Below, in pieces: positions 1,764 through 6,641 of a stretch of DNA of 6,752 nucleotides (position 1 is its first letter; each line of letters starts with the position of its first letter). Under the pieces are notes generated by a model, which searched no databases, was not told where the DNA came from, and was given only the letters and a program-made list of their open reading frames with translations. The stretch is from Gemmatimonadota bacterium (GTDB lineage: Bacteria > Latescibacterota > UBA2968 > UBA8231). Made by a program: the position numbers and the translations under genes. The DNA lies in the NCBI GenBank assembly GCA_002712305.1, contig PATE01000039.1, positions 1 through 6,752 on the forward strand. The letters run 5' to 3'.

Positions 1764-2900
1764 TTGAGTTCGAAGACGGTGTTGCTTTTAGGAGGCTTCG
1801 CCCCCGGACAGTCACAGTGGAGTATTCAGCAGGGCTTCGAAGCCGCAGGATACCGCGTCATCTACACACCGAGTCGCGGCTGCATCGCCGCCAATCGAGC
1901 TGCAGATATCGAGCTGGCGAAGGAGGAGGCAGATCTCATCCCGCCACTGGAGACATGGGATCTGCGATATCCAGATGCGGCCGCCTACGAAGAGGGCTTG
2001 GCCCAACTCATCCAGGAACATGAGCCCGCCATGCTGTTGTGGTGGTTCAGCAAGGATGACTGCCCCGCGGGGTTGATCACGTCCCTGCGACAGCGATTTC
2101 CATGGTTGAAGACGGTGACGCATACCCAGGATGATCCGTGGGATGCCCTGCGTCATCCGGAATTCTCTGAAGAATTCGAGTTTGTCGTCACGTGCTGCAA
2201 AGAGAGTGTCCACGTGTATCGCGATCGGGGCATTCAGGCCATCGTCCTCTATCCCCCACCAGCCCGTCAGCTTCACGGCGTTGCCCAACCGGCCGAACAC
2301 GAATCGTGCGACTTCTCGGTGACCATCCTGTCCATCTACGCCCGCGCAGACAGCGATGGCAGCGCCTACTTGGCCTCGGCAGACCCGGTGGAGAGGATCA
2401 CCCACCCCATCGGTTTTCCCGATCAGCGTGTCCTGCGACACGAGGTGGTCGCTACCATCGGTGAAATCGGCCGCACCCACATCTATGGTGGCCTCGGATT
2501 CGGCACCTTCCCTGGCATCCCTCGATCCTGCTACCGCGGTTTCCGCACCTACCGCGAACTGCCGGGGATCTACCGGGCGACGAAGATCAACATCAATCAG
2601 CACAACTCCCCGCGTTCCCACGGCTACCTGAATCAGCGGGATACGGCCATCACGGGTGCCGGCGGTTTCATGCTCACCGACTATGTGGAAGGCATCGAAG
2701 AGGAGTTCGACATCGGCACCGAGATCGACACGTGGGAAACCCTCGATGAGCTGCGCGACAAGGCCGAGTGGTGGCTGCGTCATGATGACGAGAGACGTGC
2801 AGCGGGGCTCGCGGCGCAGCAGCGCGTGATGGCCCGGTATGGGAATGATGCCTACGTCGACCGTCTCGTGGCGTTCATCGCCGACCCCGGTGCATCATGA
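1764..2900 (+). CDS. CgeB-like glycosyltransferase (Glyco_trans_1_2 C-terminal domain)
   Basis: This 378-residue cytosolic protein has the two-domain GT-B plan of the CgeB (spore maturation/DUF3880-type) glycosyltransferase group, which moves a sugar from a nucleotide-sugar donor to an unknown acceptor. The N-terminal half opens with a Rossmann-like strand and Gly-rich turn (TVLLLGGF, 5-12). It continues with WWFSKDD (93-99), the alternating strand THTQDDPWD (119-127) and FVVTCCKESV (140-149). The C-terminal half carries the family signature Y270-RATKININQHN, then ITGAGGFMLTDYVEGIEEEF (296-315), where the donor phosphates and ribose are normally held. A final helix follows with DDERR and QQRVMARY. 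Length fits the family. TTG 1764 is chosen because of the AAGGA 6 nt upstream and because the core strand starts immediately after. Its stop overlaps the start of the propeller gene (ATGA, 2897-2900), so the two are translationally coupled. Acceptor and sugar are unknown. Confidence 0.82.
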   Translation: MSSKTVLLLGGFAPGQSQWSIQQGFEAAGYRVIYTPSRGCIAANRAADIELAKEEADLIPPLETWDLRYPDAAAYEEGLAQLIQEHEPAMLLWWFSKDDCPAGLITSLRQRFPWLKTVTHTQDDPWDALRHPEFSEEFEFVVTCCKESVHVYRDRGIQAIVLYPPPARQLHGVAQPAEHESCDFSVTILSIYARADSDGSAYLASADPVERITHPIGFPDQRVLRHEVVATIGEIGRTHIYGGLGFGTFPGIPRSCYRGFRTYRELPGIYRATKININQHNSPRSHGYLNQRDTAITGAGGFMLTDYVEGIEEEFDIGTEIDTWETLDELRDKAEWWLRHDDERRAAGLAAQQRVMARYGNDAYVDRLVAFIADPGAS

Positions 2901-3979
2901 TCGAACTGAAGAATATGGATCGCCAGGTCGTGGTCCCCACCAGCGACTCGCAGCCACGCAACATGGGCGCCGACCTGGTGGTGTTGTCCGATGGTCGATG
3001 GTTGCTGGGATACTCGCGCTGGCTCGGTGGCGCCCACGATGACGACGGCAGCCAGGCCTGTGCGCTGCTCAGCAACGATGGCGGCGACACCTAGTCGTCC
3101 CCCTTCGACATCGCTCGCCCGCCTGACGGTGTCGGAGCATTACGCATGCCCAACTTCCTGCGGCTGCTCGACGGGCGACTGGCCTGTTTTCTGCGCTACC
3201 GGACGAGCCACCTCGACACGTGGACGGCCATGATCATCTGTCGTGACGAAACCCAGCTTGGCGCAGTGGACGATGGCACGGCGTTGTGGACCGACCCCGT
3301 GCGGATCTCTCCACCGGCGCCCGGCCGACATGTGCTGCTCAACAACCGCGTCCTTCGCCTGCGGCACGGTGCCCGGGCGGGGCGAATCCTGCTGCCCCTT
3401 GCATCACCGTGGCCATGGGACGAGGAAGATCGCCGCGGTTCCGACATCCGCGCCTGGGTGCTGTATTCTGACGATGATGGGGTGACATGGCAGCCGAGCG
3501 ACACCATGCTCGCTGGCCCCGAGCGCGGTTTGATGGAACCGTATCTGATGGAAAGCCCCGAGGGGCGCGTGCGAATGTGGATGCGGACGCAGATGAGCTG
3601 TCAGTACGAGACGACCTCTGACGATGGGGGCACCACGTGGTCACCCGCCGGACCCGGGCCTGTCGTGTCACCCGAGTCACCCGTCGCCGTGGCTCGCCAC
3701 GAGGCCTCGGGGCAACTCATGATGGTCTGGAATCACAATCGTCGCGGCGCCCACACCGCCGATCGTACGCCGGTCTGTGTGGCCTTCTCAAACGATGAAG
3801 GGGGGTCATGGAGCAACGAGCATCGCCTTGACCCCAGTGTCGACGACACGGGTGACGGCCGTTCGTTCTCCTACCCCGGTGCCCACTTCATCGGCGACCA
3901 GGGCATTGTCACGTATTACGAGAACAGTGACAGACAGATCTCGCTCGTCGTGCGGCGTTTCGAACTGGCCACCAGCTGA
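2897..3979 (+). pseudogene. BNR/Asp-box beta-propeller (exo-sialidase-like), interrupted by in-frame TAG at codon 66
   Basis: Read through a single TAG (3092-3094), this is one 360-codon frame with the layout of the BNR_2/sialidase-like six-bladed propellers, which bind or cleave terminal sugars on glycans. Four Asp-boxes (S-x-D-x-G-x-T/S-W) are visible: SNDGGDT followed by the stop (codons 59-66), SDDDGVTW (191-198), SDDGGTTW (241-248) and SNDEGGSW (298-305). In three of them the last codon is TGG; in the first it is TAG. The conserved coding pattern continues without frameshift on both sides (SSPFDIARPPDG after the stop). A single G-to-A change at 3093 therefore explains it. The first 65 residues alone could not fold as a propeller. 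A fragment restarting at ATG 3146 (277 residues) would lack blade 1. No signal peptide is visible. The start ATG 2897 overlaps the glycosyltransferase stop. A young pseudogene, a sequencing or assembly error, and amber readthrough all remain possible. True sialidase activity is not established. Confidence 0.8.
3133..3137 (+). promoter_or_regulatory. Possible internal ribosome-binding site for restart at ATG 3146
   Basis: CGGAG lies 8 nt before the in-frame ATG 3146, 39 nt downstream of the premature TAG. Ribosomes stopping at 3094 could re-initiate here and make a 277-residue propeller fragment retaining Asp-boxes 2-4. The site may be fortuitous, since it sits within coding sequence (V-G-A codons). 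Confidence 0.3.
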
Positions 3980-4071: not shown

Positions 4072-5913
4072 CTATAGCCCCATCTTCTCGCGTCCCACAT
4101 CACTCAATAGATTCGGGGTCCATGCCGGCTCCCATGTGAACTCCACGACCACAGAGCTCACGTCGGCCTGCTGTTCCAGACGTGCACGCAGGGGTTTGCC
4201 GAGGAACTCGAACATCGGACGCCCTCGATGGGGCATGGTCATGATTACCTTCACGTCGTTGCCACGAGTGCGGACGTCGTAGATGTATCCCAGATCCACG
4301 AGGTTTGCCTCCTTCTCGCTGTACTGATCGTCGATGACATCCCGCATAGCATCCCACAGGGCGCGCTTGCGCGGCCAGTCGGCGGGTCGTTCACCGATAC
4401 GTGCCAGGGGTTGAGCCGAATCGACATCGGTTGTCCCGGTGGCCACGTCATCGACGGAGACAATGTTGACCTCGACGGGAGCCAGCAGTCTCTCGCGCAA
4501 TTGCTGTAACCCGGAGGTGCCCCCTTCCTCGAGGTAGGGTGCCAGCAGATACGCATTGCGCTGAAGGAGACGATCCCCGGTCTGCACCCAGGCATTGTCC
4601 CGCAGCATGGGCCGACACCACACCGCCGCGTGTGGGCCTTCGCCCGTCTTGGCATGGTCGACGGTGAGACCCGTGTTCTGATACAGCCTCGAAGGCGTGG
4701 TGCCGTCGGGCCCGGTGTGCCCCGATTCCTCGGCGCTGGGTCCCTCAAGACGATGATCGAGATAGACGGCGAACATGCTGTCCCGACTCTCGCGATGGAA
4801 AAACCCGACGCCCCACACGTGGTCGGCTTTCTCTGCGGGCGGTTTCCCCTCGTGCACCTGGCCCTCTTCATCCATCCACAGAGATCCATCGAAAGGGCGG
4901 CCGCCGAAATACCACTCATCGTCACGCGCCACCAGGGTGCAGAAATCGCGCGCCGCCTCCATGGTGCCCTCCTTCAGGAAATACGGGACACCTGAATAGA
5001 AGGTGTAGCTCAAGTCCATGAAGAGGCGGGTGGGTGTAAACAGCGGATGCGCTGGACCGTGGGGAAAGCCGAAACGGCGCACCTTCGTGCACAACGGTCC
5101 CCGTACGATCTCGTAGTGAGGGCATTCGGCCCAGTTTGTGACGCGCATCTTTTGGAAAGGCCCAACCGACATGTAGTCGTGAGCCCAATCGATGTTCGGT
5201 GGCTCTCCATGGCCATTGCCGTGAGAGGCCAGTTTCATCCCTCCCAGATGCCACTTCGGAACCAGCGACTCCAGCTGACCCATCTGCTTGGAGAGCGTTG
5301 CCACGTAGTCGGGAGTCTCGATCTCCAGACCAACGCCTTCGCCACGCACACGAATGCGGCTCGGGTAGTCGGGCAGTTCGGCGGCGGGATTAGCGCAGAA
5401 GATCAGATACTTCGACTCGGCCGACGCGTCGACGTCTGCTTCGAACACGAGGTGGGCGAACCAGTCCGACCCACGGCGGGTCTCTCCATACACCTGGCTT
5501 GTCACCTCTTGCGGCCCATGGCTGCCGATCCGCGCCACTCGCAATTCGCGCCCTGGAGACATGACCTTGTCGAATGGCAGGCCCACGAGCAGATCCACCG
5601 GTTCGCTGACACGATTCTGACCGGTCGATTCACCCAGGTTCAGACATTGGAACAACTCCCACCCTTCGCACCAGCGCGCCCAGGACTCAGGCAGCTGTGC
5701 CACGGGAACCCAATCCGACGCCGACACATCCGCAGCCCCCGGGTCGGCAAACAGGTCACGCTCGTTGGCGATGCCGTCCTTGATCGAGCTGGCCACACCC
5801 ATGGCCAGTTCATGATTCCCATCGCGCAGGGCCTGCTGCAGAATCTCGACCTTCGTGTCCACATCATCGGTGCGCTCGACCCACGTGGGCTCGAGGTTGC
5901 GTCGATAACTCAT
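4072..5913 (-). CDS. Large beta-rich protein of unknown function fused to a C-terminal MIP18/DUF59 (PaaD/SufT-like) domain
   Basis: The protein has 613 residues. Residues about 517-613 match the MIP18/DUF59 family (SufT, PaaD, human CIAO2), which helps insert Fe-S clusters. Matches are RALWDAMRDVIDD for the first helix, NLVDLGYIYDVR (537-548), VKVIMTM, and the hallmark tail FTWEPAWTPNLLSDVGREKMGL region (592-613; family pattern W-[DE]-P-x-W-T-P, E-K-x-G-L). The family's conserved Cys (G-C-P) is replaced: G564-R565-P566, codon CGT at 4219-4221. The first ~510 residues are unassigned. About 100-330 look beta-sandwich-like, with VDLLVGLPFD, SKYLIFCANPA, a Trp/His/Asp-rich centre (NIDWAHDYMS) and LFMDLSYTFYSGVPYFLKEG, reminiscent of polysaccharide-lyase or mutarotase-like proteins. 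No signal peptide or membrane helix is seen. ATG 5913 overlaps the PhyH stop (ATGA) and has GAGGA 5 nt upstream. The gene ends in TAG. Domain call firm; overall role unknown. Confidence 0.85.
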   Translation of the reverse strand: MSYRRNLEPTWVERTDDVDTKVEILQQALRDGNHELAMGVASSIKDGIANERDLFADPGAADVSASDWVPVAQLPESWARWCEGWELFQCLNLGESTGQNRVSEPVDLLVGLPFDKVMSPGRELRVARIGSHGPQEVTSQVYGETRRGSDWFAHLVFEADVDASAESKYLIFCANPAAELPDYPSRIRVRGEGVGLEIETPDYVATLSKQMGQLESLVPKWHLGGMKLASHGNGHGEPPNIDWAHDYMSVGPFQKMRVTNWAECPHYEIVRGPLCTKVRRFGFPHGPAHPLFTPTRLFMDLSYTFYSGVPYFLKEGTMEAARDFCTLVARDDEWYFGGRPFDGSLWMDEEGQVHEGKPPAEKADHVWGVGFFHRESRDSMFAVYLDHRLEGPSAEESGHTGPDGTTPSRLYQNTGLTVDHAKTGEGPHAAVWCRPMLRDNAWVQTGDRLLQRNAYLLAPYLEEGGTSGLQQLRERLLAPVEVNIVSVDDVATGTTDVDSAQPLARIGERPADWPRKRALWDAMRDVIDDQYSEKEANLVDLGYIYDVRTRGNDVKVIMTMPHRGRPMFEFLGKPLRARLEQQADVSSVVVEFTWEPAWTPNLLSDVGREKMGL

Positions 5914-6641
5914 GCGTGTCCTCGCAGGATGGGTGTGTTCTCGGGGGGTTCGTTTTCGCGGTTGCCACCGAGGATGGTCGCCGTCGCGTCCATGTAGTGG
6001 ATGGCCAGGGCGCGACGCGGTTGATCGGTTGTGTTGGGCAGTGTGCGATGCGGTGTGGCACCGTGGTGAAACATGATCTGGCCCGCCTGCAGGGGCACGG
6101 CCACGGCAGCGGGCTCATCGGGGCTCGACATGACATATCCACCCGGATCGACACCGTGGTGCTCCAGCAGCTGCTGATGGGCTCGGGGAATCACCCACAT
6201 ACATCCGTTGTCTTCATTTACGTCACCGAAGGCCATCCAGCAGGAGACGACGGCATCTGGCTTGCTCACGCCGAAGTAGTAGTCGTCCTGATGCCAGTCG
6301 ATCTCGCCACCGGTGTGGGCCGGTTTGTACAGCCCCTGACAGAGGATCAACCGAAGATTCGGACCGATGAGCGACTCGACTCGATCCAGGATTCGAGCAT
6401 CGCGCACAAGATCTGCGAAAACGGGATGAGACAGGTGGGCACAGCGAATCTGCTGGACCTCGGTCTCTGTACCATCCTCAAGCTGACCCGGTCGGATGTT
6501 CTTCAACGCCTGTTCCTGGCGCAGACGCTCCAGACACGCATCGTAGGCGTCGGCGAAGGTCTGTATTTCTGCCGATGAGAAGATGGGGTCGGAGACGAGA
6601 AACCCTTCTCGCCTGAACTGCTCGATCTGTGTAGGTGTCAT
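5910..6641 (-). CDS. Phytanoyl-CoA dioxygenase (PhyH) family Fe(II)/2-oxoglutarate oxygenase
   Basis: This 243-residue protein is a member of the PhyH family, non-haem iron enzymes that use O2 and 2-oxoglutarate to hydroxylate, halogenate or otherwise oxidise small molecules. Seen directly: the typical N-terminus (TPTQIEQFRREGFLV), the iron-binding H117-x-D119 in EIDWHQDDYYF, the strand VVSCWMAFGDVNEDNGCMWVIPRAH (131-155 region), FHHGATPH (191-198) with distal His H198, and QPRRALAIHYM, where R209 or R210 should hold the 2-oxoglutarate carboxylate. The facial triad therefore appears complete and the enzyme plausibly active. Length is near the family norm. ATG 6641 begins the standard N-terminus. 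The frame stays open upstream to the window edge but contains no other start codon, and only a weak AAGAG precedes it. It overlaps the MIP18-fusion gene by ATGA, so the two are probably made together. The substrate is unknown; PhyH paralogues are very diverse. Confidence 0.92.
   Translation of the reverse strand: MTPTQIEQFRREGFLVSDPIFSSAEIQTFADAYDACLERLRQEQALKNIRPGQLEDGTETEVQQIRCAHLSHPVFADLVRDARILDRVESLIGPNLRLILCQGLYKPAHTGGEIDWHQDDYYFGVSKPDAVVSCWMAFGDVNEDNGCMWVIPRAHQQLLEHHGVDPGGYVMSSPDEPAAVAVPLQAGQIMFHHGATPHRTLPNTTDQPRRALAIHYMDATATILGGNRENEPPENTPILRGHA
5919..5923 (-). promoter_or_regulatory. Ribosome-binding site for the MIP18-fusion gene
   Basis: On the minus strand GAGGA lies 5 nt before ATG 5913, inside the last codons of the PhyH gene. 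It fixes the start of the downstream gene and shows that the coupled gene has its own good initiation signal, so the 4-nt overlap is not its only means of translation. Confidence 0.55.

Follow-up and report, generated by a model that had tools for sequence, protein, structure and literature searches.

The window, by which we mean the whole 6,752-nucleotide stretch of Latescibacterota DNA that was analyzed, contains on its reverse strand a complete open reading frame of 613 amino acids (positions 4072 to 5913), in which a RIFT-barrel/beta-super-sandwich core is followed by a C-terminal DUF59 domain. Directly upstream on the same strand is a phytanoyl-CoA dioxygenase-like (PhyH) gene (5910 to 6641; PF05721, E value of 1.6e-34). 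The ATG of the 613-residue frame overlaps the PhyH stop codon (ATGA), and the two genes probably form one operon and are co-transcribed. A Rieske gene at 1203 to 1580, 2.5 kb away, lies on the opposite strand and is followed at 1581 to 1669 by a short forward-strand frame, MKEQRAHIEQLANLLFEGPIPHSSLKVG, which ends in a stop and looks like a truncated gene start. Also on the forward strand, at 2897 to 3979, a sialidase/BNR_2-like gene is broken by an in-frame TAG at about 3092 to 3094, within an Asp-box-like motif (GGDT*SSPF), so that the open reading frame listed from 3146 is just the downstream part of this gene; the TAG may be a real nonsense change or a sequencing error. Neither suf genes nor phenylacetyl-CoA epoxidase subunits were seen within the window.

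The MIP18/DUF59 domain is best known for helping cells to build iron-sulfur proteins. An earlier note, made from the sequence alone, had placed such a domain at 4072 to 4365, at the end of the 613-residue protein, and these coordinates are correct, corresponding to residues 517 to 613 plus the stop codon. Residues 517 to 586 match Pfam family PF01883 with 25.2 bits (E value of 2e-5) when the whole protein is searched, and the C-terminal 109 residues alone score 29.4 bits (E value of 1e-6), both above the curated gathering cutoff of 23.5 bits; this is the only Pfam match in the protein. In an AlphaFold2 model built from 26 window and locus sequences (pLDDT of 81.5, pTM of 0.85), residues 513 to 613 (4075 to 4377, reverse strand) adopt the DUF59 (FeS_assembly_P) fold, matching the solved structures 3cq2, 3lno, and 2cu6; for 3cq2_B, the Z score was 15.8 over 98 residues, at 1.8 Å and 33% identity. 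The domain is thus confirmed as genuine.

Its signature has been replaced. The published signature of SufT-type domains is DPE-X26-31-T-X2/3-C (PMC9045647). At residues 560 to 566 (4216 to 4236, reverse strand), the alignments and per-column table place MPHRGRP where canonical domains have (L/M)T(A/S)P(G/A)CP, and Arg565 aligns with the reactive Cys of the T-x-P-G-C-P motif, as the earlier note had reported. That note was right that the signature Cys is lost, but it understated the extent of the change: the P, E, and T are replaced too, leaving the D alone of DPE...T...C, and there is no cysteine anywhere in the domain. The core residues of the DUF59 fold (L-V-D-x-G and W-x-P-x-W) are retained.

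To place Arg565 in the context of the family, 62 different domains were collected from related genomes, among which were 297 sampled from one planctomycete class. The Cys was absent from all 44 domains fused to a core of this kind, with Arg in 43 and His in 1, whereas the full set of signature residues (D, P, E, T, and C) was retained in each of the 18 domains without such a fusion; the canonical group was labeled by the Cys itself, while the architecture split and the D, P, E, and T columns are independent of that label. Arg occupies the Cys position in 30/30 members of group A, mostly within MPHRGRP, and in 12/12 members of group B, within MPYAGR or LPYAGR; in the two members of the N-terminal group, it is Arg in one and His in the other (L040). 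Throughout group A (30/30), the P of the signature is replaced by D, E, or A, its E by Q or M, and its T by P. Group B retains the E but has P in place of the T (12/12), and the N-terminal group has M in place of the E and F in place of the T. In nearly all fused domains, the signature has been rewritten into M-P-[H/Y]-x-G-R. Few positions are the same in every member of groups A and B, but P561, G564, and R565 are; within group A, His562 and Arg563 are nearly invariant as well.

Orthologues of the window protein are 66 to 76% identical to it over their entire length. Every C-terminally complete homologue within about 38% identity has the domain, and homologues lacking DUF59, about 25% identical to the window protein, group apart from these in the tree. 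In no fused homologue is Arg565 aligned with a Cys. Neither of the two outcomes that the earlier note had named as refuting its view was thus obtained, and its suggestion that the domain had been repurposed or had lost its cluster-related activity is supported, with docking, the new role that it named, as one candidate among others. Cys-dependent Fe-S work has very probably been lost in the fused domain.

On the sequences collected, the DUF59 fusion family is present in Latescibacterota and Planctomycetota. Fused domains form one side of a branch in the domain tree (support of 99/96), and in the core tree, DUF59-bearing cores form one side of a branch (100/99) against nine cores without the domain. 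L040 and L045, which make up a small clade, have the domain at the N terminus instead. The simplest history would be a single fusion, then loss of the signature, with a change of domain order in that clade. At L045, a 939-residue frame (6500 to 9316, reverse strand) runs from a Gfo/Idh/MocA oxidoreductase through a DUF59 domain into the lyase-like core; this may be a three-way fusion or a pair of genes with no stop codon between them.

The domain remains under constraint. Its dN/dS values (Nei-Gojobori, ten pairs) range from 0.04 to 0.24, similar to those of the core, and indicate purifying selection; dS is near saturation in the two pairs involving the window protein. Mean column conservation is the same in the domain (0.67) as in the core (0.66). 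Together with the invariance of P561, G564, and R565, these results rule out decay, and the earlier argument from conservation thus holds.

Three PF01883 matches are found in the genome from which the window comes, a 4.77-Mb draft that is 91% complete. Besides the window protein, these are a paralogue (L002) that is 29% identical to it, with the domain at the C terminus of the same core and Arg at the Cys position, and a short canonical protein (L003, on G000:C4) that has TSPACP and lies beside SufS- and SufU-like genes. A position adjacent to suf genes is common, not universal, in the SufT family. Planctomycete genomes likewise retain Cys-bearing DUF59 copies. The canonical copy beside the SufS- and SufU-like genes implies that Fe-S work is covered elsewhere in the genome.

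Compared with the SufT/MIP18/DUF59 family (PF01883, TIGR02945, TIGR03406), the C-terminal domain of the window protein is similar in fold and overall sequence but differs in its rewritten signature, the replacement of Cys by Arg, its fusion partner, which is not Fe-S related, and the export leaders of some members of its family. The window protein scored far under the cutoff of the SufT equivalog model (39.5/143.4 bits) and under those of other SufT/PaaD equivalogs (37.7/202.6 and 28.4/108.15 bits); the canonical copy from the same genome also fell short on the SufT equivalog (124/143.4), so that the cutoff alone is not telling. The best NCBIfam match by score was to PaaD (NF041868, TIGR02159), at 48.4 bits, far short of the cutoff of 180. 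By domain family, the window protein is a DUF59 protein, but the defining features tested set it apart from Fe-S maturation factors of the SufT type. A published survey covered 761 SufT homologues, every one of which kept the Cys, and named no glycan enzyme among their fusion partners (PMC4982691). Two planctomycete Rieske-DUF59 fusions in our collection, at L084 (61 to 846, reverse strand) and L102 (1075 to 1833, forward strand), keep TSPACP; their architecture is rare among SufT proteins but has been described before (S7 in PMC4982691). In the open-licence literature, we found no description of DUF59 fused to the core reported here and no relevant title on exported DUF59.

The N-terminal part of the protein, which the earlier note had described as beta rich and resembling carbohydrate-active folds, bears out that description when the model is compared with solved structures. 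The fold of residues 84 to 487 (4453 to 5664, reverse strand) resembles that of two domains of PL26 exo-rhamnogalacturonan lyase, the N-terminal and the central one, and that of the half of GH38 that forms a beta-sandwich. The best match was to PL26 chain 5xq3_B (PcRGLX), with a Z score of 18.0 over 332 residues, at 3.9 Å and 8% identity, an identity so low that likeness of fold does not demonstrate lyase activity. GH38 mannosidases and GH174 fucanases rank close behind, and, in the model, the resemblance to PL26 is to a superfold, GH38 being close behind. At the sequence level, PL26 was not matched in Pfam or the PDB: the core has no Pfam match, and a PDB search with the family profile returned DUF59 chains only, plus one chance-level match, and no PL26 chain. 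PL26 chains are about 880 residues long and are unmatched over the DUF59 part as such.

Conserved residues within this core are consistent with catalysis. R330, D332, and E333, in the R-D-D-E stretch of candidate active-site residues at 330 to 333 (4915 to 4926, reverse strand; invariant columns in A1 and A2, groups A and B), are invariant across the whole superfamily, including the members without DUF59. Along with these, R280, Y303, and R434 are kept even in relatives lacking the domain, and the pattern is as expected of a candidate active site. Residues H235, E237, D242, W243, H245, and D246 are nearly invariant and lie in the same loop (residues 230 to 250) in which the confidence of the model is low; low-confidence loops are often those closing on a ligand or partner. 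Distant core-only relatives, which lack DUF59, match DUF4861 (PF16153), L096 doing so above the cutoff (23.4 bits against 22.3); we found no paper on this family in the open-licence literature. There is also a weak match among these relatives to the BT_3233 family (NF058564). Membership in DUF4861 was rejected for the window protein by sequence, there being no match in it or in its genome.

The window protein begins MSYRRNLEPTW, has no hydrophobic leader, and is predicted to be cytosolic in its own organism, with no signal peptide. At least eight members of group A (L009, L089, L090, L091, L092, L093, L094, and L109) have hydrophobic, signal-peptide-like leaders preceding the conserved RTD region, as do core-only relatives such as L031, L096, and L097; the leaders were recognized from their hydrophobicity and by inspection rather than with a trained predictor. 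In the leader-bearing members, the domain would appear to be exported, and a domain outside the cytoplasm cannot join SUF-dependent cytosolic Fe-S maturation there. Of the biological arguments, export, as judged from these leaders, would weigh most heavily against a role in Fe-S maturation. Together with the fold of the core, the export of several members suggests a carbohydrate-active enzyme.

Genes for PhyH, Gfo/Idh/MocA, and enolase-superfamily (mandelate-racemase-like) proteins recur beside the Latescibacterota members. The genome containing the window has undergone an extreme expansion of the first two of these families, with more than 140 PhyH matches and 104 Gfo/Idh/MocA matches in 4.77 Mb, which puts adjacency near background and makes it weak evidence, and we therefore rejected the neighborhood as proof of function. 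No common neighbor stood out around the planctomycete copies, and the neighboring genes are too little conserved to name a pathway. The Rieske gene was rejected as an Fe-S partner, as it is on the other strand and is absent among the genes shared by several loci.

The overall best explanation, to which we assign a probability of roughly 0.6, is that the DUF59 domain has been exapted as an integral, Cys-independent accessory domain of a carbohydrate-active protein. Its fusion to a carbohydrate-active core, lyase- or hydrolase-like, would have happened a single time, in the common ancestor of the Latescibacterota/Planctomycetota family, after which the Cys-centered Fe-S maturation site would have been lost and M-P-[H/Y]-x-G-R fixed in its place. 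The substrate of the core may be a sugar polymer or oligomer that is acidic or sulfated, acted on through R330/D332/E333, Y303, H235, R280, and R434, and the DUF59 domain may pack upon the core as an accessory or assembly domain. Arg565, in the former Cys pocket, would bind an anion rather than serve as a nucleophile or thiol contact; candidates are a carboxylate or sulfate of the substrate and an acidic side chain in the core or in a partner subunit. An accessory role for the domain is, on balance, the side on which we come down. More tentatively, an intracellular factor of Fe-S maturation may have become a substrate-binding or lid domain, in which the nearly invariant Arg of the old Cys pocket holds an acidic group of the glycan; such a domain would function in the cytosol as well as beyond the cytoplasmic membrane.

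Could the domain instead be purely a structural or dimerization element, keeping the DUF59 fold and perhaps a homodimer interface, with MPHRGRP as a buried motif that has no ligand? SufT of Mycobacterium tuberculosis homodimerizes (PMC9045647), the core fold residues are retained in the fused domains, and the joint invariance of P561, G564, and R565 is what might be seen in a structural turn. However, an invariant Arg at a formerly reactive site, with His562 and Arg563 nearly invariant beside it in group A, is not readily explained in this way, and we consider a purely structural role unlikely. A domain that still belongs to Fe-S biology, as a Cys-free docking module to Fe-S proteins or the SUF machinery, is less probable again. 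Its membership in PF01883, the Fe-S related partners to which other DUF59 domains are fused (PMC4982691), the Rieske fusions at L084 and L102, and the Rieske gene 2.5 kb away would all fit docking. Nevertheless, the Cys of M. tuberculosis SufT is needed to bind SufS, SufU, aconitase, and SufR (PMC9045647), so that its loss removes the known interaction chemistry; moreover, the window domain has lost the P, E, T, and C of the signature, at least eight members of the family appear to be exported, and the Rieske gene is neither on the same strand nor among the genes common to several loci. A lone mutation, a decaying domain, or an assembly join in this one genome can be dismissed for practical purposes; nothing in the analysis spoke for it, the same architecture with Arg recurs in dozens of independent assemblies, including the long contigs G018:C1, G149:C1, and G324:C1, and the domain is under purifying selection.

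Exaptation of the DUF59 domain by a carbohydrate-active protein bears on how this family is named and studied. Annotation pipelines are likely to label these proteins "iron-sulfur cluster assembly protein" from PF01883, a label that is wrong on this evidence. The family allows the capabilities of a Cys-free DUF59 fold to be examined as nature has tried them, and it adds, from two environmental bacterial groups, an unassigned family of candidate carbohydrate-active proteins.
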